DNA of 34,391 bases from Bacillus sp. UNC41MFS5 (lineage in GTDB: Bacteria > Bacillota > Bacilli > Bacillales_B > DSM-18226), in contig NZ_JMLP01000031.1 of NCBI RefSeq assembly GCF_000686805.1, positions 1 to 34,391 of the forward strand, read 5' to 3'. Of this stretch, positions 14,112-34,180 are shown in pieces. The stretch's first letter is position 1; each line of letters begins with the position of its first letter. The position numbers and the translations under genes are program-made. Below the pieces are notes generated by a model. That model saw only the letters and a program-made list of their open reading frames with translations. It searched no databases and had not been told where the DNA came from.

Positions 14112-14171
14112 AAAAACAGCGACAAGTTTAATTTCACTTGTCGCTGTTTTTAAACTAAAGCTACCCGTTAG
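14112..14171 (+). repeat. L-U-T repeat copy 1 (unit only, interrupted by IS110 element)
   Basis: Unit with a perfect 16-bp stem (AAAAACAGCGACAAGT / ACTTGTCGCTGTTTTT), then TTAAACTAAAGCTACCC and GTTAG (14167-14171). The IS110 left end begins at 14172. The left arm is not recognisable. Confidence 0.65.
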
Positions 14172-14425
14172 CCATCCATGAAGCGCAAAATCGGCGCTTC
14201 ACCACAAAGAATGAAAATGTATTGAATCCGTCCATACTGCTTCTAAGGCTGGGAGAGGAAGGTCGATAAACTATGGTGCCTTAGAGCCCATCCGTTAGTC
14301 TGACTCCAACGACCACGGTGCACCACAAACTGTCGCTCCCTTACGGGAAGCACTCATGGTAGATTAATCCTAATTCTGATTGTTGCACCAGCCTCCAATT
14401 TTCAAGCCTAGAAAGGAAGATTTCA
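14172..14425 (+). ncRNA. IS110 non-coding left end, candidate bridge RNA
   Basis: A 254-base structured, gene-free segment between the GTTAG of a repeat and the IS110-type transposase start. It opens with CCATCCATG and a stem GAAGCGC-loop-GCGCTTC, and later holds GTCTGACTCCAACGACCACG. For IS110 elements such as IS621 the bridge RNA is known to lie in the left non-coding end. The assignment rests on position and on a conserved second copy at 17876-18127 lacking the transposase. Confidence 0.6.
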
Positions 14426-15050
14426 ATGGATGTAATCATTGAAAGTGCATGTGGTTTGGATGTCCATAAGGACAATATCACTGCTTGTATTATGACTTCA
14501 GAAGGAAAGGAGGTTCAAACATTTTCTACTAAAACAGTTTTTCTATTAAAGTTATTGGACTGGATTAAGGAGAATAATTGTACTCATGTAGCTATGGAAA
14601 GTACGAGTGTTTATTGGAAACCTATTGTTAACTTATTGAGTCCGAAGGAATAGAGTTTTTAGTTGTAAATGCCCAACACATGAAGGTACTTCCGGGACGC
14701 AAAACGGATGTTAAAGATGCCGAATGGATAGCCCAACTTCTTCGATGGACTACTGAAAGCAAGCTTCATTCCTGATCGGAATCAACGAGAATTGCGGGAA
14801 CTTGTACGCTATCGAAATTGGTACGAACGTTGGAAACCAATTCCCGACTGCCGCACATTTGTGTTCATGGGCAGCCTTGGTTCCTGGACACAATGAAAGC
14901 GCAGGTAAAAGGAAATCTAGCAGATCAAAAAAGGGAAATAAGTATTTAAGATCCGCATTAACAGAAGCAGCTCAATCAGTAAGAGGGTCAAAAAACTATC
15001 TCGGTGCACTGTATAGACGCACATCTGGACAAAAATTGCAGGAATCATAA
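14426..15050 (+). pseudogene. IS110-family transposase remnant
   Basis: Decayed DEDD-type transposase/recombinase. It begins with ESACGLDVHKDNITACI after GAAAGGAAG, as in intact IS110 enzymes, and includes VAMESTSVYWKP. One lost base near 14640 shifts the frame into a stop; the true sequence continues as EGIEFLVVNAQHMKVLPGRK and KTDVKDAEWIAQLL. A second shift falls near 14745, before LKASFIPDRNQRELRELVRYR. A large internal deletion near 14820 then joins directly to the C-terminal FPTAAHLCSWAALVPGHNES and KKGNKYLRSALTEAAQSVRG, which carries the conserved Ser region. The end of the protein is missing. It is therefore inactive, but its left non-coding end is intact in appearance. Confidence 0.85.
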
Positions 15051-15054
15051 TTAG

Positions 15055-15273
15055 TAAGAGATATATAAAGTATGTTGTTTCATGACTAAGTAAACCACCA
15101 TCTTTTACTTTCCAAAGGTGGAAATTCAATAAAGCATTTATTTTATATATAAGATTTCCAACTGTAACATACGCCAAGGTAGGGTAATATATTTTGAAGT
15201 TTCTCCAGTCTCCCCATTTCCATGAGGATAGTAAACTTAAGATTGCTACAACAATTTGAAATATTGTCCTCAC
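15055..15273 (-). pseudogene. CBO0543-type membrane protein, truncated
   Basis: The N-terminal part (about 73 residues) of a small membrane protein like the one at 15461-15928. A hydrophobic start is followed by SWKWGDWRNFKIYYPTLAYV, a family-like motif, and then a second hydrophobic stretch. The frame continues past 15055 only into antisense IS110 sequence, so the C-terminal half is missing. The function of the family is unknown. It is separated from its neighbour by repeat copy 2. Confidence 0.6.
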
Positions 15274-15344
15274 ATCTCATTTTTGTCATTACGAGATATT
15301 ATCTCAAATTTTCATTTTTTAATTCTTTACTACTTCATATTCAA

Positions 15345-15430
15345 TTATTCTGCCACGTTATTACAACAAGAAAAGGGATTGCCACAGCAGTCCCAAACTT
15401 AAACTCTTGCTTCCGTAAGTTGAACAAAAG
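15345..15430 (+). repeat. L-U-T repeat copy 2
   Basis: Left arm CTGCCACGTTA, ACAACAAG, stem GGGATTGC / GCAGTCCC, then TTAAACTCTTGCTTCC and GTAAG-TTGAACAAAAG, the start of a second unit. On the minus strand the stem is followed by CUUUUCUU and can terminate the CBO0543-type gene. Confidence 0.75.
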
Positions 15431-15460
15431 TTCTATTTTATAATAGGTTTCGAATGAATT

Positions 15461-15928
15461 TTACTTAACATTTTCCTTTTCAAAGATTTCTTCCTGCCAT
15501 AACTGATAAAGATATAGAATGACGGCTAAAATTGTCATTGCTAAAAGATTTTTTAAAGGAGAGAAACTACCAGTTTCTCTTATCTCTAGCTTGTTTAACA
15601 TTTTAGTAAGACCCATCCCATACAAGAGGTCAATAATTAAATTAACAATTATATAAATCCAAAATTTACGAAATGAAAAATAAAATATCCATATAGTCCC
15701 CACCAAAAAAACACCATAAACAGTAAATAATGGTGCTAATTTGTCCCATGTAAAAAGAGTCTCTTTAAATTTCCACCAGTTATATGACCAAGCCATTTGA
15801 GCCAATATTGTGTTTAGCACTGTGGCAAATAGAGCAACAGGCATATATCTTCGAATTGCCGAACCATTTAAAAAGAACAATGAAATCCACGGGATAATAA
15901 ATAAAGACCAAATTACTACCTTAACCAT
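15461..15928 (-). CDS. CBO0543-type integral membrane protein
   Basis: 155 residues with four or five predicted membrane helices: 3-20, 27-48, 64-86, 89-108 and a C-terminal helix near 128-146. The helix-linking segment SYNWWKFKETLFTWDKLAPL and the charged tail (WQEEIFEKENVK) fit the CBO0543 group of Bacillus and Clostridium hypothetical proteins. No catalytic motif is visible and the function is unknown. AAGGG lies about 10 bases before the ATG. A second, truncated relative lies downstream, so the pair may be a duplication. Confidence 0.7.
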   Translation of the reverse strand: MVKVVIWSLFIIPWISLFFLNGSAIRRYMPVALFATVLNTILAQMAWSYNWWKFKETLFTWDKLAPLFTVYGVFLVGTIWIFYFSFRKFWIYIIVNLIIDLLYGMGLTKMLNKLEIRETGSFSPLKNLLAMTILAVILYLYQLWQEEIFEKENVK

Positions 15929-16000
15929 TTTTTTATGTCCCTTCTGTGAGCTTTAATGTAGTATGCCATTTCTGGTTAGGTAATATGATTTTTTTATTTA

Positions 16001-16090
16001 ACTATCCTGCCACGTTAGCATAATAAGAAAAAGCTGCCACTTAGACAGCACTGGTTTTTCGTTAAAACAACAGTCAGTTCAATAAAAATG
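16001..16090 (+). repeat. L-U-T repeat copy 3 (one and a half units)
   Basis: Left arm ACTATCCTGCCACGTTAG, AATAAGAAAAA and stem GCTG / CAGC. A second unit start, CAGTTCAATAAAAATGCAG, follows about 50 bases later. Same orientation as the other copies. Confidence 0.7.
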
Positions 16091-16104
16091 CAGTTGGGAA
16101 TCTT

Positions 16105-16142
16105 AAAAAGAGCAATCAGGCTAATCCCATTTGCTCTTTTTT
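16105..16142. terminator. Bidirectional terminator
   Basis: Stem AAAAAGAGCAA / TTGCTCTTTTT, with T runs on both strands. It is downstream of the His-rich spore protein gene (minus strand). The remaining bases to 16381 hold a 32-codon minus-strand frame without a ribosome binding site, not called. Confidence 0.7.
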
Positions 16143-16381
16143 CATATTATTGATTAGCCTGTTTAACCCATTTAGCACCTATTTTGTGCGTTTACCTTGA
16201 TCTCCACATCCAATACCATATCGCCTTTTTGCACTACTGGTGCATTTGTTAAAACGGTTTTTCCCAACATAAATAGCAGGATAAGTGGAAAAATTCCCCG
16301 ATAAGACAAATGTTTATTTTTAAAATAACGTCATGTGCAAAATTAACTAATATTAATTAAAGAGTCTAGTAAGAACAATCT

Positions 16382-16597
16382 CTAACAGCAGCCACCATAT
16401 CCATGATGAAATGGATAGCCGCTATATCCATGATGGAATGGATAGCCACCATAACCATGATGGAATGGATAGCCACCATATCCATGATGGAATGGGTGAC
16501 CACCATATCCATGATGGAATGGGTGACCACCATAACCCATTCCATAACCAGGATAACCTCCATAACCCATACCGCTTCCAAAGAAATCTCTTTCCAT
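16382..16597 (-). CDS. Gly/Tyr/His-rich repeat protein, probable spore coat protein
   Basis: 71 residues. After MERDFFGSGMGYGGYPGYG come five tandem copies of a nine-residue unit, GYGG(H/Y)PFHH, and the protein ends in GGCC. Eleven His and many Gly and Tyr residues suggest an insoluble, possibly metal-binding surface protein. Such compositions are common among Bacillus coat and crust proteins, but I recognise no named orthologue. GAGGAGGGG lies before the ATG. YjcZ-type peptides lie about 500 bases away on the other strand, which supports a spore role. The DNA repeat has a 27-base period, so copy number can change by slippage. Confidence 0.7.
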   Translation of the reverse strand: MERDFFGSGMGYGGYPGYGMGYGGHPFHHGYGGHPFHHGYGGYPFHHGYGGYPFHHGYSGYPFHHGYGGCC

Positions 16598-16664
16598 TTA
16601 ATATCCCCTCCTCAAATTGTTTCAAAAATAGTGTATGTGTCCATTTTTAAAGAGGAATAGATAT

Positions 16665-16892
16665 TTGCCTAATTGTAAGTGTCTTCTTGGCTGTTATTTT
16701 ATTTGCTGTATAGTCATAACCCTCATTGTACTTGTGTTAATGCTTTTTATATCGTGGGTTTTATTTACTATTTCTTCGTATGTACCTGTGCGTACAAAAA
16801 ATAAAAATAAAAAAGCCCTTTTTAGGGGCTTGGCTTTAATAATCAGCACTTGTCCCATTCAGCTTTATTCTGAGTGCATATGTTATTATTAA
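16665..16892 (+). CDS. Possible small Cys-rich membrane protein
   Basis: An open frame from a possible TTG at 16665 (ATG at 16635 also in frame). It encodes a Cys-containing start (PNCKCLLGCYFICC), one strong membrane helix (IVITLIVLVLMLFISWVLF) and a basic tail (RTKNKNKK). AGAGG lies about 9 bases before the TTG, and a good terminator follows 34 bases after the stop. The last 25 codons read through a weak inverted repeat (16813-16832) and look less protein-like. I am unsure it is expressed. Confidence 0.35.
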   Translation: MPNCKCLLGCYFICCIVITLIVLVLMLFISWVLFTISSYVPVRTKNKNKKALFRGLALIISTCPIQLYSECICYY

Positions 16893-16925
16893 GTCAGCCA
16901 GACATATATAATTACCTCAGAAAAG

Positions 16926-16956
16926 GCGTTTGCATGTATTGCAGACGCTTTTTTAT
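16926..16956 (+). terminator. Terminator
   Basis: GCGTTTGCA / TGCAGACGC stem (one G-T pair) followed by TTTTTTATTTTT. Confidence 0.8.
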
Positions 16957-17093
16957 TTTTAGAAATTGTTTAAGTAAAACGCATATTTTGTCTTATCCCT
17001 TATGACAATTGTCCAATCCCTCCTTGTCTTAAGAAATATATATACATAGTGAGAGTTTTTTCCTTCAGATATTCCAACAGGAGGTGAAATGAT

Positions 17094-17225
17094 ATGTGGG
17101 GCTTATGTGGCGGTTACGGATATGGCGGCGGATATGGCTACGGCGGTGGCTATGGCGGCAGTACTTTTGTATTAGTCGTTGTATTGTTCATTCTGTTAAT
17201 CATCGTACTTGCTAGTTTTTGCTAA
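17094..17225 (+). CDS. YjcZ family sporulation peptide (43 aa)
   Basis: A short spore protein of the YjcZ family. A Gly/Tyr-rich head ([19 protein letters not shown]) leads to the typical hydrophobic tail ([19 protein letters not shown]), a single membrane helix ending in Cys. GGAGGTG lies 7 bases before the ATG. The family is made late in sporulation in Bacillus; its exact role is unsettled. The gene is followed 74 bases later by a second, shorter family member. Confidence 0.88.
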
Positions 17226-17299
17226 TGTTTGATAAACCAAATAGATGGATTTTGGCTGAGTAAAGTAAATTTAAATAAGAATAGTTGGAGGCGTTATAC

Positions 17300-17392
17300 A
17301 TGGGTGATGGAATGGGAAGTGCTTTTGCGTTAATCGTTGTATTGTTCATTCTGCTTATCATTGTCGGGACTTCGTTTATGAGCGGCTACTAA
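17300..17392 (+). CDS. YjcZ family sporulation peptide (30 aa)
   Basis: Very short relative of the preceding peptide. MGDGMGS replaces the Gly/Tyr head; the helix [19 protein letters not shown] is almost the same, and the end is SGY. GTTGGAGG lies about 10 bases upstream. This is the minimal form of the family, common as multiple copies in Bacillus. The two genes probably arose by duplication and may share a transcript. Confidence 0.85.
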   Translation: MGDGMGSAFALIVVLFILLIIVGTSFMSGY

Positions 17393-17472
17393 ATTGTACG
17401 GAACAAAGGGCAGGTTAAGTTAATCTATCCCTTTGTTATAGAGACTTCTGAAATGAATGGAGGATGAAGCAA

Positions 17473-17607
17473 ATGCCATTTGATCGAAGAGATCGATTTT
17501 TTCGTGACGACTTTAGAAGAAGACGATTTTTACCCTTTGAATTCTTATTTTTCCCCTTTTTCCCTTTTGACTTCGAAAGAGAAAGAAGAAGAAGACGCAG
17601 ATTCTAA
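17473..17607 (+). CDS. Arg/Phe-rich small protein (44 aa), possible spore protein
   Basis: Starts at ATG 17473 with GGAGG 10 bases upstream and encodes MPFDRRDRFFRDDFRRRRFL, then PFEFLFFPFFPFDFERERRRRRRF. Of 44 residues, 15 are Arg and 14 are Phe; a hydrophobic Phe/Pro core lies between two basic ends. I recognise no family. It follows two YjcZ genes in the same direction and precedes a terminator, so it is probably a third gene of a late-sporulation unit. It could be a coat or DNA/RNA-binding peptide; that is a guess from composition. Confidence 0.55.
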   Translation: MPFDRRDRFFRDDFRRRRFLPFEFLFFPFFPFDFERERRRRRRF

Positions 17608-17716
17608 TTAAGCAAATGATTTAAACAGTCTTTTCAGAAGCCTACGGGTAAAAACGTGCTTCATCATAGGCAGCTGTTCTTATTGAGCTAAGAAGCTGGT
17701 GGAAGAAGGCTATTGT

Positions 17717-17741
17717 AGGACCTAAATAGGTCCTTTTTGTT
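17717..17741 (+). terminator. Terminator of the spore-peptide cluster
   Basis: AGGACCT-AAAT-AGGTCCT followed by TTTTGTTTT, 110 bases after the Arg/Phe-rich gene. Confidence 0.85.
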
Positions 17742-17800
17742 TTGAGTAATTATCAACATTAATATTTAACACAGCTTTTATTAAAAAAATCCCTCCTTTC

Positions 17801-17875
17801 ACTAACCTGCTCCTTTAGTCGATCAAAAAAGCTGCTAAAATTAGCTGCTGGTTCTTCAAGAAAAACACCCGTTAG
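17801..17875 (+). repeat. L-U-T repeat copy 4 (right end interrupted by IS110-like element)
   Basis: ACTAACCTGCTCCTTTAG, GATCAAAAAA, stem AGCTGCTAA / TTAGCTGCT (imperfect), AACACCC and GTTAG (17871-17875). The solo IS110-like element begins at 17876. Confidence 0.8.
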
Positions 17876-18127
17876 CCATCCATGACGCGCAATAACCGGC
17901 GCTTCACCACAGAGAATGAAAATGGATCAGGCAGTCTATACTGTTTTAATGCTGGCGAAGAAGGTCTTTGAACTATGGTGCCTTTGAGCCCATCCGTTAG
18001 TCTGACTCCAACGACCACGGTGTACCACCGACTGTCGCGCCCATTTAGGGGTAGCACTTATGGGAGATTAATCCTTTTTCTGGTTGTTGCGCTAGCTTTC
18101 CTGATTTTATTTTAAATAGAAAGGTAT
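17876..18127 (+). ncRNA. Candidate orphan bridge RNA locus
   Basis: Homologous over its whole length to the candidate bridge RNA region at 14172-14425. Differences are concentrated in blocks (for example around 17935-17965 and 18035-18055), while flanking stems are kept. This is what one expects if guide loops drift and the scaffold is conserved. There is no adjacent recombinase, and expression is unknown. Confidence 0.5.
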
Positions 18128-18250
18128 TACTATTTCGTTTTGCCAGCTAACCTTATACTCATTCTTCAAGAGGCTCAGCCTTTTTTTAAAAACTGGTTTT
18201 TCTGGGTCTATTTTTTCATGCCATTATTTCATTTTTTATTTTCATGGGAG
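17876..18250 (+). mobile_element. Solo IS110-like element without transposase
   Basis: The first 250 bases are a clear homologue of the non-coding left end at 14172-14425: the same CCATCCATG start, the stem GCGC-loop-GGCGC, a shared run CCATCCGTTAGTCTGACTCC, and a Shine-Dalgarno-like AGAAAGG at the end. No transposase follows. After about 120 AT-rich bases comes TTCATGGGAG, then TTGAACAAG, the sequence that normally follows GTTAG in the repeat. It therefore looks like a non-autonomous IS110 derivative inserted between GTTAG and TTGAACAAG. Confidence 0.65.
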
Positions 18251-18269
18251 TTGAACAAGTAAATATCAT

Positions 18270-18749
18270 TTAACTTTGATTTTCCATAAAACTTTCAGCT
18301 TCATAACCATCAACTGGATAATCATCAATGGTAACAGAATTATAATAAAATTGTTGAATAGAACATTCGAGGCTAATGTAAATTTCTCTCGGATCTACAT
18401 CTTCATCCTCCTATAACTCATCGTGAAAAACATAACCTATGTTTCTTGTATTTAAATCGATTACAATCGGATCTCCATTAAGTCCAGAACCAATTATAAA
18501 CAAACCATTATCAATACAACGTTTGTGTTCTTCATAAAGATTGTTTTCGGGCATTTCATTTACATTATTAAAATAAACATGCTTAAATTTTATGTTTTCT
18601 CTAAAAGAAAACTCTTTTAAAAAAGAAATTACATCTTCGGGAATTTGATAATCTTTCAAAAATTTATTTGTGCTTGAACTAAAGTCAACTTTTATAAGAT
18701 TGTGTTTATCAATTTTCTCTAATGCTTTTCTAAATAATCCTATATCCAT
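18270..18749 (-). pseudogene. SMI1/KNR4 (SUKH) immunity-type protein with an internal stop
   Basis: A SUKH-superfamily protein, probably antitoxin or immunity in contact-dependent or polymorphic toxin systems. The N-terminal part contains YQIPEDVISFLKEFSF, and the core has GLFIIGSGLNGDPIVIDL and IGYVFHDEL. A TAG stop at 18411-18413 ends this frame. The same frame then continues without a break for 47 codons of family-like sequence (EDEDVDPREIYISLECSIQQ to FMENQS) to TAA at 18270. TGG to TAG is the likely single change. The start is ATG 18749 after GAAGG (ATG 18758 is also possible). It is inactive unless the stop is read through. Confidence 0.75.
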
Positions 18750-18802
18750 TTTCAACATCCTTCATCAATCATTTTAGCTATATTTTTATCATGTTCTTGT
18801 TC

Positions 18803-18925
18803 AACTAAACTGCTTCGTTACTTCAAAAAAAAATAGCTGCCAAGTTGGCAGCTTGATCTTAAACTCTTGCACCCGTTACTTGAATAAGAAAAATGCCTTG
18901 CTTCCCTGTTAAAGCAAAGCACTTT
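18803..18925 (+). repeat. L-U-T repeat copy 5 (two units in tandem)
   Basis: Left arm AACTAAACTGCTTCGTTAC and first unit with stem AGCTGCCAA / TTGGCAGCT, TTAAACTCTTGCACCC. GTTACTTGAATAAGAAAAA then starts a second unit with stem TGCCTTGCTT / AAGCAAAGCA. The two units share flanks but have unrelated hairpins. It separates the two SUKH genes. Confidence 0.85.
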
Positions 18926-18958
18926 TGAATAAAGCTATGTAATCATCAGCCGTTAATC

Positions 18959-19417
18959 CTATAGAGAATTATTTAATAACTCTGATAAAAAGTCTCCAAA
19001 GTTCTCTGCAATCATTTCAAATGATTGTTCCTTTATTGGAAGTCCACTGATAAACGAAACAACAGGTGCATTGTCATCATTATTACTTTGTACTTTGGAG
19101 CAATCTAGGCAAAAATACTCGCCATCATCAGCGAAATAAAAGCAAATTAGATTATTAGGTAAACCTTCTGTTTCTCTTAACTCTTTGGTAATCCAAATCA
19201 TATTCGGGATTCCTGTTTCATCTGTTCCTAGACCATAAATTTCTTGTCCAAAAATATCTCCCAAACCATATTTCTTTAAAAATGTCCTATAACTTTTAGG
19301 AAATTTCACCTTTAATTTATTTTCAGCATCAATAATTGTTTGTTCATCGATTTCACCTATAAAATCAGCTTCTTCTTGATTATCTTCTATAATTTCTAGT
19401 GCTTTATTTATCGACAT
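18959..19417 (-). CDS. SMI1/KNR4 (SUKH) family protein, probable immunity protein
   Basis: 152 residues of the SUKH-1 type. The hallmark start of the domain, IDEQTIIDAENKLKVKFPKSY then RTFLKKYGLGDIFG, is at about 23-57. It is followed by YGLGTDETGIPNMIW and CFYFADDGEYFCLDCS, and a C-terminal segment ending in FGDFLSELL. Such proteins neutralise cognate nuclease or deaminase toxins in Firmicutes; no toxin gene is adjacent. GGAGGAG lies before the ATG. It is the intact neighbour of the broken SUKH gene at 18270-18749, but the two are not close paralogues. Confidence 0.85.
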   Translation of the reverse strand: MSINKALEIIEDNQEEADFIGEIDEQTIIDAENKLKVKFPKSYRTFLKKYGLGDIFGQEIYGLGTDETGIPNMIWITKELRETEGLPNNLICFYFADDGEYFCLDCSKVQSNNDDNAPVVSFISGLPIKEQSFEMIAENFGDFLSELLNNSL

Positions 19418-19471
19418 TTATTCTCCTCCATACCAATCCATTATTAATTATTTTAACACCATTCCTTTTTC

Positions 19472-19510
19472 AACTAAACTGCTTCGTTTGTTGAAAAAGA
19501 TTTTGTTCCA
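19472..19510 (+). repeat. L-U-T repeat copy 6 (left part only)
   Basis: AACTAAACTGCTTCGTTTG-TTGAAAAAGA, a left arm and the start of a unit. The hairpin and right tail are not recognisable. Confidence 0.6.
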
Positions 19511-19651
19511 CAAAAATTTTGGTTATATCTGCCTGATTCAAACGTAAATAAAATGCAAAAAAAGATAGAGCTATTTATCAACTCTAAGTTTTTATTCATG
19601 ATTAAATTTTTTATTGGCAATCCAATAAATCGGATCATTTGTCAGCTTAAG

Positions 19652-19682
19652 AAAAAGGAAGGCCTCATATATGACGACCTTC
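19652..19682 (-). terminator. Terminator of the molybdenum hydroxylase gene
   Basis: GAAGG..TCAT-AT-ATGA..CCTTC stem followed on the minus strand by CUUUUUC, 35 bases after the stop. Confidence 0.6.
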
Positions 19683-19716
19683 AAATGGAACTGCACTCCT
19701 TCCCATCGGATAGACT

Positions 19717-26707: not shown

Positions 26708-26728
26708 GGATACTAATAATCACAACTA

Positions 26729-26763: not shown

Positions 26764-26821
26764 ATTAACTTTTATGTCGCCCTTTGAGTCAAATGCTACG
26801 GTAATATCAATTCCTTCATAA

Positions 26822-27112: not shown

Positions 27113-27142
27113 GGATAATAAAATTATGTTCAGGACATATTA
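27113..27142 (+). promoter_or_regulatory. Possible sigma-G promoter of the gamma-type SASP gene
   Basis: GGATA (27113-27117), 18 bases, then CATATTA (27136-27142). The -10 matches the sigma-G pattern CATNMTA, the -35 is one base off GMATR, and the spacing is right. The leader would be short (about 14 bases) but contains GGAGG. Confidence 0.5.
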
Positions 27143-27163
27143 TTGTCGTGGAGGTGATTTATT

Positions 27164-27352
27164 ATGGCTAATAATCAACAACCAAACAAAACTCAAGCTG
27201 GGACTAACGCCCAACAGGTTAGACAACAAAATGCTCAAGGTGGACAAGCTAGAGCTGGTCAATTCGGAACAGAATTTGCTAGCGAAACAAATGCACAAGA
27301 GGTAAGTCGTCAAAACCAACAATCCCAGCAAAATAATAACCAAAACTCTTAA
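27164..27352 (+). CDS. sspE: Gamma-type small acid-soluble spore protein
   Basis: 62 residues, Gln/Asn-rich, no Cys or Trp: MANNQQPNKTQAGTNAQQVR, then NAQGGQARAGQFGTEFASET and a Gln/Asn tail. The stretch FGTEFASETNAQ(E/A)V is the hallmark of gamma-type SASP (SspE), including the GPR protease cleavage context. The protein is an amino-acid store of the spore core and, unlike alpha/beta SASP, does not bind DNA. It has one repeat block instead of the two in B. subtilis SspE, which makes it short. GGAGGTG lies before the ATG. The region is flanked by repeat copies 11 and 12. Confidence 0.93.
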   Translation: MANNQQPNKTQAGTNAQQVRQQNAQGGQARAGQFGTEFASETNAQEVSRQNQQSQQNNNQNS

Positions 27353-27368
27353 TTTGTGACTTTATAAA

Positions 27369-27402
27369 ACACCTCTTATCGCTCGGTAGGGGGTGTCTTT
27401 TT
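27369..27402 (+). terminator. Terminator of the gamma-type SASP gene
   Basis: ACACCTC / GGGGTGT stem followed by CTTTTTAT, 17 bases after the stop. Confidence 0.7.
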
Positions 27403-27546
27403 ATGAACTTTTTTTGAGGTAAAGCAATTTACAAACATTCTTATTTTCAAACTAAACCTTCGATTGAGCAATTTCTTCACAAACTTTTTAAAAAATTAAG
27501 AACTGAAAAATCAGCTTGGTCTTCTATTTTATGATATTGTTGATCA

Positions 27547-27636
27547 TCTAACCTGACTGTTGAACAAGAAGAAAATTACAATATTAAGTCACGGAATCTT
27601 CAACTTTTGCAACCAAGTAGTTCAATAAGAAGTTTT
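27547..27636 (+). repeat. L-U-T repeat copy 12 (diverged, one and a half units)
   Basis: CTAACCTGACTG-TTGAACAAGAAG, a diverged middle, AACTTTTGCAACC, then GTAG-TTCAATAAGAAG, which is the start of a second unit. Confidence 0.65.
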
Positions 27637-27767
27637 GTATGTTATAGCCAATGCTTTTCTGAATATGAAATTAAGTTTTAATCGTAAAATTCTACACAAA
27701 ATTTAAACGACCGTCCTTTACGGGCTTGTCTTAAATGCATAAACTATTAAGATATCATTAGAAAAGA

Positions 27768-28250
27768 GTGAAAATATTGTCAACAAACTTAGTTGCAACA
27801 GTAAGAATTGTCTTGGCTTTAACGGTACAAGCCATTCGATTTGCTAATAGTGCAAAACTGATAATTCAACAACTTGAAGGTTTTGGTTTACCATCCAATC
27901 CAATCAAACCACAATTATATCACGATGCCATGGATAGTCTAACTGATGCTTTTAATACTATTCAAGCTCCCCCTTTAAATATACAATGGACAACTGACCC
28001 TATACTTCCACTTAACCCAATTTATCCTAATGATCCTATAAGAATTAAACTATCAGACAACCGAGCATTGCTGGCATTAGATAGAACCAATGATGCTATC
28101 AGATATATTCACACAGCTATACTATTAAGTGCTGATCCTGACATCACTGAGCAACTGCTTTTAATTAGATTCCAGGTAAAAGCCGCACGACTTGCACTTG
28201 AAGATGGTATAGATGCTCCTCCATTTGCAGGAGATGTTAAGAGTCGATAA
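27768..28250 (+). CDS. Hypothetical protein (about 160 aa)
   Basis: Starts at GTG 27768 or, slightly better placed after AGAG, at TTG 27777. The N-terminal 40 residues form an amphipathic helix (LVATVRIVLALTVQAIRFAN). A Pro-rich middle (PLNIQWTTDPILPLNPIYPN) and a helical C-terminus (NRALLALDRTNDAIRYIHTA, LLLIRFQVKAARLALEDG) follow. Not a signal peptide of standard form. I recognise no family. It lies between spore-protein genes in the same direction, so a role in sporulation is possible but unproven. Confidence 0.6.
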   Translation: MKILSTNLVATVRIVLALTVQAIRFANSAKLIIQQLEGFGLPSNPIKPQLYHDAMDSLTDAFNTIQAPPLNIQWTTDPILPLNPIYPNDPIRIKLSDNRALLALDRTNDAIRYIHTAILLSADPDITEQLLLIRFQVKAARLALEDGIDAPPFAGDVKSR

Positions 28251-28268
28251 TTTATCGGCTGTTTTTAT
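28242..28268 (+). terminator. Terminator overlapping the stop codon
   Basis: AGTCGATAA / TTATCGGCT stem followed by GTTTTTATTT. The TAA of the preceding gene is inside the left arm. Confidence 0.75.
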
Positions 28269-28290
28269 TTAGTTTACAAAAGTTTTTTTC

Positions 28291-29282
28291 ACTAACCTGC
28301 TTCGTTAGTTCATTAAAAAAAGAAGTTGCCACAGCAACCCCTTGTTAATACAGATAGGTAAGGTTTTGAAGTTATCGCTCCCTTTTCCCCCCGTCTACAC
28401 CGTACAAGCAGCTTTCACCGCATACGGCGTTCCAACTATACCAATCCACTTTAACCATAACACTGTTTAGTATTGTGATATTTAATGTGTTTCATTTCTT
28501 CCGTTTCAATAAGTCGGTGCCTCCCGTGGGAGGTGAACCTCTTTTAGTCATACGAGAACCTTTAACCGATAAAGAATTGCCTTGCATGATTAAAGGAATC
28601 TTCAATAGTCTTGTGGCTATCCCTCCATGTTGATTAGACATTTCATCGGTACTGTGCCACTACTTTCACTGATATAAAGAAAAGTTATACGGCAACTATT
28701 ATCATTATCGCTTTTCTTTTCAACGCTTCGTCGGGAGTAAGCCCTCCACGTTATCAGCTTACAATGTTGAATTATATCTATTATAGAATGAACTTAGGTG
28801 CTTCCATTAAGCCTGTTAGCCGTTCATATGCCTGTAACATATCATGGACTTTCATATGAGTTATTTTTACTCATCCACTGCTAACCTCACGCTGTGGCGA
28901 TATACACATTTCCATGTATTGTGCTTGTAGACCCGTACATTCAGAAGTTCGTCAGCTTACCCTTTTCTTGTAGGTTTATTTGCATTCTCACCATATTCTT
29001 TCAACTCATGCATCATGAACTACACCACTCCTTCGAGTAGGATTTCGGCAGCCGAACTGCTACGGTAGTTTCTCACGCCTTTTCGCCGAGCTTATAACAC
29101 TACCATTCTTACTAAATCCAGTGCTATTCGACTAAGAGAGAACCCTTCAGGGCGTTACTCCATCATTTGATTCTTCGATATAATCCTTCAGTTCCGACAG
29201 GAACTGTCTGACCTTTACCTGAGTATTGTAACCAATCTCAATTTAAGCCAGAAACATTTCGCACAACTCAAGCACCCGTTAG
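28291..29282 (+). repeat. L-U-T repeat copy 13, split by a group II intron
   Basis: Left arm ACTAACCTGCTTCGTTAG, CATTAAAAAAAGAA, stem GTTGC-CACA-GCAAC and CCCCTTGTTA end at 28347. AACTCAAGCACCC-GTTAG resumes at 29265. Joined, they form GTTAAACTCAAG exactly as in intact copies. An IS110-like element starts at 29283. Confidence 0.85.
28348..29264 (-). mobile_element. Group II intron without intron-encoded protein
   Basis: 917 bases on the minus strand. The 5' end is GTGCG (29264-29260), the consensus start. Domain V is at about 28396-28431 (GCCGTATGCGGTGAAAGC with TACGG closing the stem), 48 bases from the 3' end, which leaves room for domain VI and ends in AT. Domain I-type segments such as GGCGTGAGAAACTAC and GGAGGGATAGCCACAAG are recognisable. 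No reverse transcriptase frame exists, so mobility would need a maturase from elsewhere. Boundaries are fixed by the interrupted repeat. Confidence 0.88.
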
Positions 29283-29483
29283 CCATCCATGCAGCACAAA
29301 ATCAGTGCTGCACCACAGAGAATGAAAATGGTTAGGAAGTGTCAATACTGTTACTGACCTTAATCCAGTCAACCCTAATTCATAGACTTATTAATTATCG
29401 CTCTCCTCTTTTTTTATGATTGAGCAGGGTCTTCTTAAGTATTGTCATTTTTCTAATGTTGAAGAAACTTAATTTCATGGTAG
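29283..29483 (+). mobile_element. Short IS110-like non-autonomous element A
   Basis: 201 bases. The left 50 bases match the IS110 left end at 14172 (CCATCCATG, stem GCAGCAC / GTGCTGC, CACCACAGAGAATGAAAATG); the rest is different and ends TTTCATGGTAG, followed by TTGAACA. It is about 93 percent identical by eye to 30149-30352. No coding sequence. Confidence 0.7.
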
Positions 29484-29505
29484 TTGAACACGTACATTCT
29501 CTTTT

Positions 29506-29535
29506 ACTAACCTGACGCTTTGTTCTATTCAAGCA
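29506..29535 (+). repeat. L-U-T repeat copy 14 (left arm only)
   Basis: ACTAACCTGACGCTTTG then TTCTATTCAAG. Partial and diverged. Confidence 0.5.
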
Positions 29536-29623
29536 ATGTAAATTTCAAATTTATGAGCATATTAAGTAAGTCGAGTAGACAAAAATATTCGCATAGTACT
29601 TCAATGAAAAGAGGGTTTAAAAA

Positions 29624-29830
29624 ATGACAGTTGGAAAAGATGTTCAAACCGCTTTAGCAAGTTTAAAAAGTGCACAAGCAAGCTTTGAAACTTTTGCTTT
29701 AGCAACCGATAACCAGAATGCAAAGCAACTTTATCAACAAGCCGCACAACAAACAAAATCCGTACTTGACAGCCTTCAACCTCGTCTTCAAGAAATTCAA
29801 GGGGAAGAACCTCAGTACAATCAGCAATAA
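29624..29830 (+). CDS. DUF1657 family protein
   Basis: 68 residues: MTVGKDVQTALASLKSAQAS, FETFALATDNQNAKQLYQQA, then a Gln-rich end. This is the DUF1657 pattern: helical, Ala/Gln-rich, without Cys. In Bacillus, DUF1657 genes often accompany spoVA-2mob spore-germination loci; none is present here. AGAGGG lies about 9 bases before the ATG and a clear terminator follows. It is bracketed by the two near-identical IS110-like elements A and B. Confidence 0.88.
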   Translation: MTVGKDVQTALASLKSAQASFETFALATDNQNAKQLYQQAAQQTKSVLDSLQPRLQEIQGEEPQYNQQ

Positions 29831-29928
29831 AGTGTAAGCGTCTTTATCAAATATGATAAGATATCCCAGATACATTTTCTGGCGGTCGGAATATGATGTT
29901 ATATAAAAAATTCATGTCCATTTTCCTA

Positions 29929-29957
29929 AACCATCCTTTCTAGGATGGTTTTGTTTT
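29929..29957 (+). terminator. Terminator of the DUF1657 gene
   Basis: AACCATCCT-TTCT-AGGATGGTT followed by TTGTTTTTT. The remaining bases to 30082 hold nothing I recognise. Confidence 0.88.
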
Positions 29958-30082
29958 TTAGAACAACATTTATTCTGTTCCATAAGTTTTTAACAAAAAT
30001 ACATCAAAAAAAATCAATTTTATTGCACAATATGGGTCAATTGCGGCATAAATGAGAGATGGATTTTCACCTTTCTTGTTCC

Positions 30083-30148
30083 ACTAACCTGCTCCATTAC
30101 TTTAATAAAAAATGCCTTACTTCGTTGTTGAAGTAAAGCACCCGTTAG
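30083..30148 (+). repeat. L-U-T repeat copy 15 (right end interrupted by IS110-like element)
   Basis: ACTAACCTGCTCCATTAC-TTTAATAAAAA, stem TGCCTTACTTC / GAAGTAAAGCA (C opposite A mismatch), CCC and GTTAG (30144-30148). Confidence 0.8.
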
Positions 30149-30352
30149 CCATACATGCAGCGGAAAAATCGTCGCTGCACCACAAAGAATGAAAATGGTT
30201 AGGAAGTGTCAATACTGTTACTAACCTTAATCCAGTTAACCCTAATCCATAGACTTATTAATTATCGCTCTCCTCTTTTTTTTAACGATTGAGCAGGGTC
30301 TTCTTAAGTATTGTCATTTTTCTAATGTTGAAGAAACTTAATTTCATGGTAG
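30149..30352 (+). mobile_element. Short IS110-like non-autonomous element B
   Basis: 204 bases, near-identical to element A. The first stem is changed on both sides (GCAGCG / CGCTGC), so pairing is kept. It ends TTTCATGGTAG, 12 bases before the stop of the VOC gene. Confidence 0.7.
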
Positions 30353-30364
30353 CTTAAGAAGGTT

Positions 30365-30715
30365 TTAACACTTACACACCATCAAATGATTGCCATCAGG
30401 GTCTTTAAAATTAAACCATTGGTTATGCTCTATTCCTGTTGTTATTTCTACATTCTTTTCCCTCATAAACTCATAAGCATTTTCTATATTATTAGTATTG
30501 AAATGAAATAGTGGGACTTTGAATATATTTTCAACTGAAAAAATCTTGCTATCTAATACAATCCCTGTTCCATTCATAGGTACTATAAACAAATGACCAA
30601 ATAATATTTCGCCTTCTGCTGCTAAACCAAGTATGTCACAATACCAATTACGTGCCTCTTCAATATTACGTACAGGAATAAAAACTGTCCCGATTTGATT
30701 TAGTATAGGATTCAT
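30365..30715 (-). CDS. VOC family (glyoxalase/bleomycin-resistance type) protein
   Basis: 116 residues with the paired beta-alpha-beta-beta-beta modules of the vicinal oxygen chelate fold: IGTVFIPVRNIEEARNWYCD, then ILGL near the start, and GIEHNQWFNFKDPDGNHLMV at the end. FKDPDGN is the signature of the second module. Metal ligands are not fully conserved, and the substrate cannot be predicted. I chose the ATG at 30715 (MNPILNQIG) because GGAGG lies 6 bases before it. Confidence 0.85.
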   Translation of the reverse strand: MNPILNQIGTVFIPVRNIEEARNWYCDILGLAAEGEILFGHLFIVPMNGTGIVLDSKIFSVENIFKVPLFHFNTNNIENAYEFMREKNVEITTGIEHNQWFNFKDPDGNHLMVCKC

Positions 30716-30795
30716 AAATACCTCCAATAAATATGACATTGAATTACTAATTTTATCAATTCGTCGATAGGTCTCTTTTTCCCTTTTCTTATTGT

Positions 30796-30838
30796 ACTAA
30801 ACTGCTTCGTTACTTTAAGTGTATTCCTACACAATCTC
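30796..30838 (+). repeat. L-U-T repeat copy 16 (no unit; apparent empty site)
   Basis: ACTAAACTGCTTCGTTAC joins directly to TTTAAGTGTATTCC, TACACAATC. The left arm and right tail are present, the 60-base unit is absent, and GTTAC occurs once. I see nothing further in 30839-31027. Confidence 0.8.
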
Positions 30839-31027
30839 TACGTTTTCATAAATATCCAAATTTCCCCTGGGTGTTTTTCAGCAATATGGCCCTAGAATGA
30901 AAAATAAGCGCTTATCCTTGTTCAAAGAAAGCGCCCGATTGCTTGATAAGAAAAGCACATTTTTTTATCTGCCTATTTTACATAACTATTTAGCGATAAT
31001 TATAATTTCTTTATCTAAAAGGCTGAA

Positions 31028-31612
31028 TTAAAACCTGAATGATCCCTCAGCTTCTTTGGATCCATTCCGAGCCTCATTCAGCAGTCTATGGCCTGTAAGC
31101 CAAACTGCCACCCCGGTCCCCCACAATATTAGGGCAGAGCCAAAACCGATAGATGTCCACCATACCATAATTTGATGATTCTCCCAGGTAACTCTCACAG
31201 GCAAAGTTAGCAGTGTGATTGCCGAAAGCAGACAGAGGAGAGTACCCGAAATATAATGGATCTTAACCTGAAAAAGGTGCGCTAGAGGAAAGAAATGAGC
31301 ACCTACAATAAGAGCCATCAAAGGGACAAACAAATCCAAGTGATTGGTATACCCACAAATTGCGGCGGTGGCGGCAATCAACACGCCTTCTAAACCGAAA
31401 ATAATACCGAACCATATATTCTTTCGCTTCCAATGATGGGAATCACCTTTTATCATCTCATTTGATAACTCTCTTGAATTTATTATCACTACTATTCCAC
31501 CGATAAGCAGAATAACACCAATTAACAGGGATAAGATCAAAAGCCAGAGAAATCCCCAGCCCTGCAGTCCTTTAATTCCAATTCCCGCCCACATAGTACC
31601 GAAAAATGCCAT
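31028..31612 (-). CDS. Multipass membrane protein; start region disrupted by a G7 run
   Basis: 194 residues with about six hydrophobic helices: 16-43, 68-88, 93-110, 117-137 and 147-172 are clearest. The central part FGLEGVLIAATAAICGY, FPLAHLFQVKIHYISGTLLC suggests a family of uncharacterised Bacillus membrane proteins. The ATG at 31612 has no ribosome binding site. A much better start, ATG 31673 after AGGAGGG, reads MSQTIIPRAAVR and would join this frame in phase if a run of seven G (31633-31639) were six. As it stands, that start gives only 33 residues. The gene is thus frameshifted, phase-variable or miscounted. Confidence 0.7.
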   Translation of the reverse strand: MAFFGTMWAGIGIKGLQGWGFLWLLILSLLIGVILLIGGIVVIINSRELSNEMIKGDSHHWKRKNIWFGIIFGLEGVLIAATAAICGYTNHLDLFVPLMALIVGAHFFPLAHLFQVKIHYISGTLLCLLSAITLLTLPVRVTWENHQIMVWWTSIGFGSALILWGTGVAVWLTGHRLLNEARNGSKEAEGSFRF

Positions 31613-31762
31613 GAAGATAACTCCGGAAGCTGCCCCCCCGCACAGCAGCTCTAGGAATGATGGTTTGCGACATATCTTGAACCCTCCTTTTTCAAATTCA
31701 ATCTAAAATGGAAAAAACTCCAATTCTCCATTATAGGAAATTTTACCATAAAATGTCGGTGT

Positions 31763-31791
31763 TTTTATTTATTTATTTATTTATTTATTTC
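31763..31791. repeat. ATTT tetranucleotide repeat
   Basis: Six consecutive TTTA/ATTT repeats, about 90 bases upstream of the start at 31673. Prone to slippage; may affect promoter spacing. Confidence 0.85.
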
Positions 31792-31874
31792 CGTTTATTA
31801 TCCCTTGTTTGATTTGCAAAAGATTAACATCTAAACAAAACACATAAAAATAATTGAATGGTGCATCTCTGTTG

Positions 31875-31972
31875 CACTAACCTTCCATGTAATGCAACAA
31901 GAAAAAGAGCCGCAGCTACGACTCTTTGTTAAACTCAAGCACCCAATAATTTAAGTACATTTATTCACAAAC
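31875..31972 (+). repeat. L-U-T repeat copy 17 (complete)
   Basis: ACTAACCTTCCATGTAATG-CAACAAGAAAAA, stem GAGCCG / CGACTC, TTTGTTAAACTCAAGCACCC, then ATAATTTAAGTACATTTATT, CACAAAC. On the minus strand it can terminate the MOSC gene. Confidence 0.88.
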
Positions 31973-32012
31973 AAGATTCATTTCACTAAGGTGCAAATAC
32001 GACCGAGCTTGT

Positions 32013-32579
32013 TTAAACACGTTCAAGCTTTTTAAATGGTCTTTGAGGTAATTCAACACGGATATTATCACCTGGTTTCACTTCTCCACTCTGCAATATA
32101 ACTCCCATTATTCCTGCTTTTCTTATTAGATTTCCGTCTGACTCCTTATCCAAAACAGCCTTTAAAAGACCAGGTTTAAAATTATCAATTTGAGCACAAG
32201 GATTCCGTAAACCTGTTACTTTAATAATTGCAGACTCACCTATTGATAATATCGTGTTAGTAGGGAATTCAAGAAGATTTATTCCGACAGTTGTAATATT
32301 TTCACCCATTTGTCCAGGTTTAATTATAAAACAGTCTGCTAACTCTTCGAATAACTCATTGTGAATTAAATGCACTTGTCTTAGGTTCGGTTGGTTTGGA
32401 TTTTGTGCCACTCTCGAGCGATGTTTAACCGTTGAACCAAAGTGTGCATCGCCTTCTACTCCTAAACCCTTCACTAATCTTATAATCTCTTGATTTTCTT
32501 TACTAAACGTATGCTTCTTACTTATACTAACCGCTATGACTGTTCCTAAAATTGAACTCTCTTTTTTTTCATCAAACAT
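32013..32579 (-). CDS. MOSC domain protein
   Basis: 188 residues. The MOSC core runs from VKGLGVEGDAHFG (about 37-49) through RQVHLIHNELFEEL, GQMGENITTVGINLLEFP and GLRNPCAQIDNFKPGL, whose Cys is the expected molybdenum-cofactor sulfur carrier. It ends with KAGIMGVILQSGEVKPGD. MOSC proteins handle molybdenum cofactor or N-hydroxylated compounds. An orphan molybdenum hydroxylase subunit lies 10 kb away, but nothing ties the two. The gene lies alone between repeat copies 17 and 18. Confidence 0.9.
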   Translation of the reverse strand: MFDEKKESSILGTVIAVSISKKHTFSKENQEIIRLVKGLGVEGDAHFGSTVKHRSRVAQNPNQPNLRQVHLIHNELFEELADCFIIKPGQMGENITTVGINLLEFPTNTILSIGESAIIKVTGLRNPCAQIDNFKPGLLKAVLDKESDGNLIRKAGIMGVILQSGEVKPGDNIRVELPQRPFKKLERV

Positions 32580-32652
32580 TCAATCCTCACAGCCTTCCTT
32601 TTTTTAAACTCCCTGTTTCATATTCAATAAAGGTTTAATTATTCCTTCTTCT

Positions 32653-32746
32653 ACTAACCTGCCCAGTCAGTGGAACAACAAAAAGAGCCGCAGCTACGAC
32701 TCTTTGTTAAAAGCACCCGTTAGTATAAGTGCAAACCTTCACAAAC
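32653..32746 (+). repeat. L-U-T repeat copy 18 (complete)
   Basis: ACTAACCTGCCCAGTCAG-TGGAACAAC, A run, the same stem as copy 17, TTTGTTAAAAGCACCC, GTTAG-TATAAGTGCAAACC, TTCACAAAC. Confidence 0.9.
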
Positions 32747-32802
32747 TTTAAAAATCATTCAATAAGAAAAGAGTATTACCCTTGATGGAGTAATACTTTT
32801 AG

Positions 32803-33327
32803 TCAATCTCTTGCTCTTGTTCTTGCCCTCTGTACATCTCTAATATTCTTCTGAACCGTTATGGCTGCAAATAAACTAAGAACAAATGCCATACCATAAA
32901 ATCCCTTTTCGCTTAAAACAATACTTCTTGCATTGTACAAACCGATGCCCATTAATGAAATAGATACAATAAGTGCAATCCAACTAATTCCATAATAAAT
33001 ATTAGTAACTGGTATTCCTTCATTCTTATCTCTTACTGTTTTTTGTAAAGATACCGCTGAAAAGAGTCCGAATACTAAAATTGCAAAGTAATACCCTTTT
33101 TCATTCAGTTGCATCGTTGCGTTATACAAACCTATAAGATAGGCAGTAACACCTACTAACAGCGCTGCCCAAGAAGCCCCTTGGAATGCTGGAGTCGGTT
33201 CTCCCTCTTTCCTTTTTACTTTCATTTTTGAGTCATTTTGTTTACCTTTTTCTAATAAAACCTCATTATCATTAGATATTGAATGTTTCACCTCCATCTT
33301 TTTATCTAATATATTCTTAATTTCCAA
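32803..33327 (-). CDS. YiaA/YiaB two-helix domain membrane protein
   Basis: 174 residues. A charged N-terminal 45 residues (Lys/Glu/Asn-rich) precede two copies of the YiaAB two-helix unit. The first is [20 protein letters not shown], then [20 protein letters not shown]. The second is [20 protein letters not shown], then [20 protein letters not shown]. Each pair is followed by a basic RD-containing loop. The internal duplication is obvious. Function unknown; inner-membrane location is expected. The long N-terminal extension may be overcalled, because GGAGG sits near codon 11. Confidence 0.88.
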
Positions 33328-33354
33328 TTAAGATTCCGAATTCACGACTTGCTA

Positions 33355-33460
33355 AACTATCCTGCTTCGTTAGTGGAACAACAAAAAAAGGCTACCTTAG
33401 CAGCCGAATATTATTGAACTCAAGCACCCGTTAGTTGAAAAAGACCTCTTTTAGGTGAAC
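33355..33460 (+). repeat. L-U-T repeat copy 19 (one and a half units)
   Basis: CTATCCTGCTTCGTTAG-TGGAACAAC, A run, stem GGCT / AGCC, TTATTGAACTCAAGCACCC, GTTAG-TTGAAAAAGACCT, CTTTTAGGT. The last part is the start of a second unit with a small stem. Confidence 0.88.
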
Positions 33461-33519
33461 GGAAACATATTTGGATTTCGGTCTATTAAATAAAGCAACC
33501 TCATAATTTGATAACCAAT

Positions 33520-33678
33520 TCAATTCCCCAATCGACTGAAAATAATCTCATCTGGTTTAGTTGATGAGACAAGTTTTTTAACTATTTCATTACCGTTCTT
33601 ATCCTTGACCACCAAATATATTTCGCATAAATAAAGGTTGTGGTTTATAAAAACTTCAGCTTTATGGTTACGATGGGG
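33520..33678 (-). pseudogene. Coding remnant
   Basis: An open minus-strand frame without a start reads KAEVFINHNLYLCEIYLVVK, then DKNGNEIVKKLVSSTKPDEI and IFSRLGN before TGA. The composition looks like protein but no start codon or ribosome binding site exists. It may be the tail of a gene broken upstream. Unrecognised. Confidence 0.3.
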
Positions 33679-33712
33679 CTACTCTTTGGTTTTTTCCAAA
33701 CATATTCGTTTT

Positions 33713-34099
33713 TTAACTTGCTTTTTTCACACAGTTATAGGCATCATCGAATGGTCTGCTTTCCCAGTTATTTAATTTTATCACCTTATCTATGCCTTGC
33801 TTCAAAATATCCAATATTACCTCTTTTTTCTCTTGGTCCTCTAGTTTAAAAAATCCATTTACATCATAACCAATCTCCACATCACAGAACCCATCTATTA
33901 TTGTTAAAGAAGGAGTTGGGGAGCCATTAACACAGAAGATGTTGATTTGCTTAATATTTTCGGTATTGAATTTTGAAAAACATTTTTCGTAAAGGGTCGT
34001 ATACATCTTGATTGATAAGAAAAATTTGTTTTTACATCTGCAACCCCATCGTCGTTTTCTGAATATAAAAGAAAATGTTTTAATCTCATTATTAATCAC
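33713..34099 (-). CDS. Hypothetical protein (about 128 aa)
   Basis: Possible cytosolic protein with CDVEIGYDVNGFFKLEDQEK and a C-terminal helix DILKQGIDKVIKLNNWES. The frame opens with GTG 34099, which lacks a ribosome binding site. AGGTG seven bases before ATG 34089 belongs to another frame that stays open for 61 codons. This suggests a frameshift near the 5' end, so the true N-terminus is uncertain. Unrecognised; size and setting resemble small immunity-type genes in this region. Confidence 0.5.
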   Translation of the reverse strand: MINNEIKTFSFIFRKRRWGCRCKNKFFLSIKMYTTLYEKCFSKFNTENIKQINIFCVNGSPTPSLTIIDGFCDVEIGYDVNGFFKLEDQEKKEVILDILKQGIDKVIKLNNWESRPFDDAYNCVKKAS

Positions 34100-34140
34100 C
34101 TAAATAAATTTTCTACTTCCATCTATTTTTATCCTTCTTT

Positions 34141-34180
34141 AACTAAGCTGCTTCGTTAGATCAACAAGATTAAAGCAGTA
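34141..34180 (+). repeat. L-U-T repeat copy 20 (left part)
   Basis: AACTAAGCTGCTTCGTTAG-ATCAACAAGATTAAAGCAG. Left arm and unit start; the remainder is diverged. Confidence 0.75.

Follow-up and report, generated by a model that had tools for sequence, protein, structure and literature searches.

The window analyzed here is a 34,391-nucleotide stretch of DNA from Bacillus sp. UNC41MFS5 (contig NZ_JMLP01000031.1, positions 1 to 34,391, forward strand), in which a repeat recurs between genes. With a probability of roughly 0.8, we conclude that the window is part of a gene-cassette array, whose units would be cut and pasted at one point by an Xer-type recombinase that is itself carried on a cassette. 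The best reading of the sequence comparisons below is a self-mobile, Xer-driven cassette system of Bacilli, which would work like an integron and lie outside the integron definition. Comparison of arrays demonstrates that units are bounded at the joint and change neighbors, that terminators form separate units, that orientation is uniform, and that a recombinase gene sits inside arrays.

Weight matrices for two types of junction, L and R, were trained on sites of Bacillus sp. OV166. At a cutoff score of at least 6, they identified 24 junctions in the window (13 L-type and 11 R-type), all on the + strand, from 15357 to 34155. Twenty-three of these score 15 to 57, and the remaining one, an R site broken by an IS110-type element, scores 8.1; the top scores in 20 shuffles of the window in 2-base blocks were 1.7 (L) and 4.5 (R). 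A stricter score of 12 gave 23 sites, all on the + strand. Four extra matrix matches on the - strand are palindromic echoes of + strand L sites, offset by 8 bp. The motif CTAACCTGCTTCGTTAG, with up to three mismatches, matched 11 times in the window, always on the + strand, against 0.09 matches expected (100 shuffles). The L and R matrices found no sites in positions 1 to 14 kb. A preliminary description of this DNA had reported hairpin repeats in a single orientation, restricted to an accessory region that begins at 14.11 kb. Orientation and restriction stand, but the starting point does not: at 14.11 kb lies an IS110-type element joined to ...ACCCGTTAG at 14163, an incomplete site, and the true sites run from 15.3 to 34.2 kb.

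The matrix consensus is CTTCTTnAACTAACCTGCTnC|GTTAG for L junctions and TCTTnAACTCTnGCACCC|GTTAG for R junctions. Both types have the arm CTTnAACT and GTTAG in common and differ in the center, and in composite copies an exchangeable terminator of ~58 bp separates L from R. The modular repeat of left arm, unit, and tail in the preliminary description is real, with its modules now recast as these two related junction types and the terminator. The layout, a left arm CTTnAACT, a center of 9 to 10 nucleotides containing TGC followed by 3 to 4 nucleotides, and a right arm GTTAGTTnAAnAAG, looks like a tyrosine recombinase core site at each joint. An A-run followed by a hairpin on the + strand reads as a hairpin followed by a T-run on the - strand, so the repeat should be able to terminate - strand genes. 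At gathering scores, no Rfam family covered the repeat, and only group II intron domains matched. By eye, degenerate copies lie at 31.87 and 27.55 kb in the window, and a group II intron splits another copy.

Arrays in other genomes and movement of their units

The 26-mer CTAAMCTGCTYCGTTAGTTGAACAAG was found in 11 stretches of 8 genomes in the genome contig collection (Solibacillus, three Sporosarcina, Bacillus sp. OV166, Neobacillus niacini, Paenisporosarcina, and Aquibacillus); viral contigs contained no match to it. In OV166, a 17-mer with up to three mismatches matched 222 times, versus 29 times for the reversed control. The OV166 sites are clustered, one array among the matches listed spanning ~3.896 to 4.025 Mb, and several arrays occur per genome. 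Array geometry was taken from 20 stretches of OV166. On one 120-kb part, 217 of 218 junctions lie on one strand. Of nine further parts, eight have all their junctions on a single strand, and the ninth consists of two opposed arrays that meet (10 + and 18 -). Intervals of 100 to 4000 bp (n = 269) have a median length of 626 bp. In 222 of 258 intervals, the longest open reading frame (ORF) of at least 50 amino acids and the sites are on different strands; 11 intervals lack such an ORF. As in an integron, these are arrays of single-gene cassettes in one orientation, with a site at the end of each.

Orientation was compared with replication by assigning replichores from 16S genes and taking the origin as coordinate 0, with lengths rounded for genomes G139 and G151. 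Sites pointed against replication in 60 of 64 cases in OV166, 8 of 9 in G139, and 8 of 11 in G151, after exclusion of 17, 13, and 15 sites near the terminus. The OV166 count covers 81 sites on the large contig among the matches listed (up to two mismatches; 135 in the whole genome). Three further genomes (G154, G157, and G119) had a like orientation by eye, uncounted. With sites pointing against replication and most ORFs on the other strand, transcription of cassette genes thus tends to be codirectional with replication, a layout also reported for the Vibrio cholerae superintegron (PMC11023631). A repeat scattered in both orientations with no link to gene presence, which had been named as the finding that would overturn the cassette proposal, is not what we observed: sites are clustered, occupy one strand per array, and mostly flip with the replichore. 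The sequence CTAACCTGATTGGTTAG, a two-mismatch match, occurs in several genomes and lies on the unexpected strand at G139:C1:4716191 and G151:C1:4682693; these matches are probably an unrelated palindrome.

Comparison of arrays revealed that shared sequence ends at the joints. Among 97 blastn blocks (250 to 2500 bp) shared between arrays, 141 of 388 ends lay within 30 bp of a junction, compared with a mean of 29.8 and a maximum of 47 in 300 trials with shifted junctions. Nine blocks had all four ends at junctions (shifted mean, 0.01; maximum, 1). Cutting the sequence at junctions yielded 754 units, and two units were considered homologous at 75% identity or more over at least 80% of both. Three of the 66 homologous pairs contained IS110-type elements or introns and were removed; 22 of the 63 kept are recombinase units. 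Both flanks were unrelated, with no 12-mer in common within ~95 nucleotides, in 53 of the 63 pairs and in 40 of the 45 between-genome pairs, and the units were bounded by C|GTTAG. A 507-bp core, 98.4% identical between OV166 and genome G147, occurs twice in OV166 and once in G147, each time in another context. Two units of the window (91.7% and 88.1% identical) recur beside other neighbors in OV166, where they and a third shared block are arranged in a different order.

Terminators move as well. In OV166, R follows L within 100 bp 96 times, whereas in 86 cases the next junction after L is not an R or lies at a greater distance; the short gap contains the terminator. Three terminator pairs at 97 to 98% identity have differing units on both sides, so terminators are exchanged separately. 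The end that precedes one gene unit (block C2_3080:24570-25147) differs between its two copies, being R-type (terminator) in one and L-type (gene unit) in the other. Gain, loss, and reordering of cassettes by exchange at the site are what sequence comparison revealed, and the earlier proposal of a recombination-driven array with terminators doubling as joints is borne out by blocks that end at junctions and by units and terminators that change neighbors. The comparison of strains for gene-plus-repeat blocks that it had called for was made only between species, where units with changed neighbors were found. A search for empty sites between arrays returned rows mostly within IS110-type elements or far from junctions, with at most two rows having ends near junctions, and is not used as evidence.

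The array recombinase and exchange at the joint

A tyrosine recombinase, which the preliminary description had suggested seeking near one end of the array, turned up inside arrays of other genomes, as a gene for a 281-amino-acid Xer-like protein. The 30 best recombinase loci (~3.8 kb each) contain 79 sites, versus 4 in the control, and 28 of the 30 have at least one. Site and gene are on the same strand for 72 of the 79 sites; the other seven are in loci L094 and L120, where the script missed the strand and genes and sites are both on the - strand. In most of the 28 loci inspected, the gene is bounded by array-type junctions as a unit of its own (leader, gene, hairpin, R-type end). Across the left boundary of this unit, identity in 14 close pairs is 0.91 just inside and 0.33 at 20 to 40 nucleotides outside; the profile at the right boundary is blurred by changes in terminator length.

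Of 186 genomes of the family, 80 match the recombinase at E 1e-70, fragments included. In a sample of the class at large, 28 of 398 genomes have it. Site number has a median of 5 in the 80 genomes with the recombinase and 2 in the 106 without it (p 4e-9), and at least 10 sites occur in 26 of the 80 versus 5 of the 106; both comparisons ignore kinship. Relatives of the enzyme are encoded on 8 of 72,556 plasmid records, and phage records contained no match at 1e-60. Sporosarcina psychrophila plasmid pSP10-266k (locus L125) has nine sites, all on the recombinase strand; its 37-kb stretch also contains merA/merR, an IS110 transposase gene, and two group II intron maturase genes. On a Peribacillus plasmid stretch (63% identity), three sites lie on the strand opposite the recombinase gene, two of them adjoining it.

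Sixteen stretches around other recombinases were compared: three at 79 to 80% identity, four at 63 to 67%, and nine (from eight genomes) at 50 to 57%. The first group has dense arrays, chiefly on the strand of the gene. In the second, sites are few or several, and a single one of them shares the strand of the gene. In the third, a variant site lies within 400 bp of the gene in seven of nine stretches, always on the opposite strand, and clear variant arrays of the form ...AACTAACCTGCCC|GTTAG-terminator-...AACTAACGTGTCCC|GTTAG occur in three of the eight genomes (G506, G218, and G575). Since the recombinases at 50 to 57% identity have variant sites nearby, these sequences indicate that enzyme and site change together and that clades differ in which way the recombinase gene points. 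Loci L150, L148, L149, and L156 have variant arrays with CGTGTCCC or CGTTTCCC in the R center. In the 63 to 67% and 50 to 57% clades (L160 to L163 and L148 to L156), the gene is opposite to nearby sites, and in the main clade it is on the site strand.

In the mechanism we propose, the Xer-like enzyme of ~280 amino acids would itself be the cutter, excising and inserting units at C|GTTAG in one orientation. The units between joints are of two kinds, gene units, of the median interval given above for OV166, and terminator mini-units of ~58 bp. Exchange would be staggered and double stranded, with three variable nucleotides in the overlap, and circles may be the intermediates. The recombinase gene usually being a unit of its own, the enzyme would spread through and between arrays. 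Among related units whose right neighbors differ, the three nucleotides left of GTTAG are the same in 3 of 18, and among those whose left neighbors differ, in 3 of 14 (baseline, 0.19; test pairs 88 to 100% identical). Agreement is 15 of 18 at nucleotides -8 to -5 and 9 of 14 over the six nucleotides right of the junction. The triplet thus follows neither neighbor, which disfavors a fixed crossover and fits staggered cuts that place the triplet in the overlap.

Alternatively, exchange could be of the single-strand, integron-like kind: an L-terminator-R composite would form a hairpin resembling attC, and only one of its strands would recombine, at a fixed point. The outer arms and TGC/GCA are indeed complementary, with 75.5% of cells paired at the consensus and 29.5 to 41.8% when slid; the attC crossover lies beside GTT, as it would here; and the replication layout matches that of V. 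cholerae cited above. However, one neighbor should keep the triplet before GTTAG, and neither does, and many joints consist of a single core site, either L or R. No clear covariation of the arms was detected in either fold (at least as many cells were paired in 40 and in 462 of 500 shuffles) or within copies, RNAalifold predicted no pairs on the site alignment, and the folds of eight single copies gave unlike structures (z-scores, 0.66 to -4.36). Arms that pair without clear covariation are expected of protein-binding inverted repeats. We therefore consider single-strand exchange unlikely, and the sequences favor ordinary double-strand exchange over a folded attC; the earlier suggestion that a whole copy folds like an attC hairpin is not supported, the arms pairing at the consensus but without clear covariation.

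A further possibility is that host XerC/XerD cut the sites, as at pdif, and that the array recombinase is merely a frequent passenger. All 12 genomes checked match the query at E 1e-25, mostly through Xer-like relatives at ~30%, and arrays persist without the specific recombinase. Yet the specific recombinase sits in arrays, its presence goes with more sites, divergent enzymes go with variant sites, and array sites point one way, so that we regard the role of a mere passenger as quite improbable. Portable terminators (resembling repetitive extragenic palindromes [REP] or miniature inverted-repeat transposable elements) inserted singly beside genes, with no cassette movement, would explain terminator mini-units in many contexts but hardly whole gene units that recur with ends at junctions and other neighbors, one strand per array, or recombinase units that mostly begin and end at like junctions, and we give them very little credence.

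Several observations weigh against a self-mobile, Xer-driven system. The window contains no recombinase (best E, 0.96). Eleven of the 106 genomes without one at E 1e-70 have at least eight sites; when six of these were rechecked, G141 and G131 had fragments at 71 to 76%, and the other four had only relatives at 28 to 33%. Six genomes with sites were picked out by pattern; of these, G003, G006, and G008 contain nothing closer than relatives at 28 to 32%, and the copy in G007 is broken. Unlike in the main clade, nearby sites are mostly, or without exception, on the strand opposite the gene in the 63 to 67% and 50 to 57% clades, and no site lies within 400 bp of the gene in the 63 to 67% stretches or in L151 and L154 of the 50 to 57% group. 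The triplet test is small and its pairs are non-independent, and the six nucleotides on the right side also agree in only the 9 of 14 units given above. Finally, because every genome pair is between species, an individual insertion separating near-identical strains was never seen, and the search gave only weak cases. Genome G152 has 32 sites and no recombinase of this clade (best identity, 29%).

Taking the self-mobile system further, we lean toward a second natural cassette system that is widespread in Bacilli, on chromosomes and plasmids, and is independent of integrons. Its Xer-lineage recombinase would be its own cassette and would shuffle genes and free terminators through exchange of both strands at paired core sites, and nearly every move would rewrite the 3-nucleotide overlap.

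Features of the window

As the preliminary description had stated, the cargo genes are unrelated. By Pfam, they encode SUKH, a molybdopterin dehydrogenase subunit, glycosyltransferases, glyoxalase, MOSC, YiaAB, and four proteins without a Pfam match, mostly on the - strand. Five ORFs scanned in the first 14 kb encode, by Pfam, an amidohydrolase, an ABC ATPase, a sigma-54 activator, an E1 dehydrogenase, and a dihydrolipoamide dehydrogenase-like protein. The features are as follows (junction positions in parentheses).

15335 to 15433, + strand: L site (15357), terminator mini-unit, R site (15415); scores 32.1 and 21.5
15415 to 16013, - strand: gene unit with ORF 15461-15928, no Pfam match; OV166 relative at 88.1%, both flanks differing (unit comparison)
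15992 to 16032, + strand: L site (16014); score 45.2
16014 to 17813, strand not given: unit with small repetitive peptide genes (sequence reading); 91.7% over 1801 bp to an OV166 unit, neighbors differing (unit comparison)
17792 to 17889, + strand: L site (17814), terminator, R site (17871) with IS110-type end after GTTAG; scores 34.6 and 16.6
18795 to 18893, + strand: L site (18817), terminator, R site (18875); scores 44.1 and 48.4
18959 to 19417, - strand: cargo gene, SUKH (SMI1/KNR4); Pfam PF14567, 1.4e-25
19464 to 19504, + strand: L site (19486); score 35.7
19717 to 22110, - strand: cargo gene, molybdopterin-binding dehydrogenase subunit; 88% identical DNA within an OV166 array (Pfam and DNA comparison)
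22162 to 22202, + strand: L site (22184); score 52.3
22673 to 22712, + strand: R site (22694) broken by an IS110-type element reaching ~24.3 kb; score 8.1; PF01548 in ORF 22849-23520
26813 to 26910, + strand: L site (26835), terminator, R site (26892); scores 57.4 and 30.8
27540 to 27625, strand not given: degenerate composite site, by eye, missed by the matrices
28282 to 29296, + strand: composite of L site (28304) and R site (29278) with a group II intron (- strand) in the terminator; matrices and Rfam
30074 to 30162, + strand: L site (30096), terminator, R site (30144) with IS110-type end; scores 40.7 and 29.7
30365 to 30739, - strand: cargo gene, glyoxalase/VOC; PF00903
30787 to 30827, + strand: L site (30809); score 22.1
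30916 to 30955, + strand: weak R site (30937); score 17.1
31867 to 31963, + strand: degenerate L (by eye), terminator, R site (31945); R score 32.1
32013 to 32579, - strand: cargo gene, MOSC; PF03473
32644 to 32737, + strand: L site (32666), terminator, R site (32719); scores 47.2 and 18.2
32803 to 33327, - strand: cargo gene, YiaAB; PF05360
33347 to 33448, + strand: L site (33369), terminator, R site (33430); scores 47.1 and 44.7
34133 to 34173, + strand: L site (34155), last before the window end; score 42.8

The group II intron in the 28.3-kb composite site is ~0.9 kb long (28344 to 29264, - strand; Rfam domains) and lies within the terminator, with no long ORF listed. IS110-type elements or apparent remnants start directly after GTTAG at ~14163 to 15055, 17871, 22694 to 24310, 29278 to 29490, and 30144 to 30360. 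The IS110 transposase domain PF01548 is also found in ORF 14426-14653, and the 14.2-kb copy is ~410 bp shorter than its relatives. Comparable IS110-type ends after GTTAG occur in OV166 and in divergent arrays. The attC sites of integrons are likewise targets of group II introns and IS110-type elements. Insertion of group II introns in attC is described in PMC7923331.

Comparison with known cassette systems

The recombinase is not an integron integrase (IntI). It scored 96.5 bits against model TIGR02249, for which the cutoff is 265; none of 12 genomes had a match over the cutoff, and neither did the control genomes. An insertion in the catalytic domain of IntI is required for an integron integrase, as stated in one passage of PMC8138268. 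As to an attI beside the recombinase gene, no other conserved site was noticed in the 28 loci inspected, with no attI model applied.

Sedentary chromosomal integrons (superintegrons) share with these arrays their long single-gene arrays, one site orientation, and a tyrosine recombinase, as well as a crossover beside GTT, genes laid out with replication, and group II introns and IS110-type elements in the sites. They differ in that the enzyme here is Xer-like and usually forms its own unit, no integrase-attI anchor was seen, terminators are separate units, each genome has several arrays, and the arms do not clearly covary. In integrons, a common promoter (Pc) reads the first cassettes; here, because many units are followed by terminators, units are likely to have their own promoters.

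In REP/RAYT systems, short palindromes are moved by a Y1 transposase; the movement of whole gene units here argues against such a system. In pdif modules, host XerC/XerD sites stand in alternating orientation, whereas the arrays have direct-repeat sites, with a core that we take to be unlike dif, and a dedicated recombinase. The likeness is that genes in the pdif modules of Acinetobacter plasmids are flanked by Xer-type recombination sites, according to a portion of PMC7399989. Clusters of attC sites without an integrase (CALIN) resemble those arrays that are far from, or without, a recombinase gene. In the relevant part of PMC9024848, few CALIN and one complete integron are reported for Firmicutes, where integrons are called extremely rare for unclear reasons.

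A literature search found no description of this system, although preprints (bioRxiv) and most subscription journals were outside its coverage, so one may be in print elsewhere. The system seems to do the integron's job in the genomes that encode the recombinase. If so, Bacilli would hold a cassette reservoir of their own, probably missed by attC-based software, and free terminator units and a self-mobile recombinase would be new to cassette biology.

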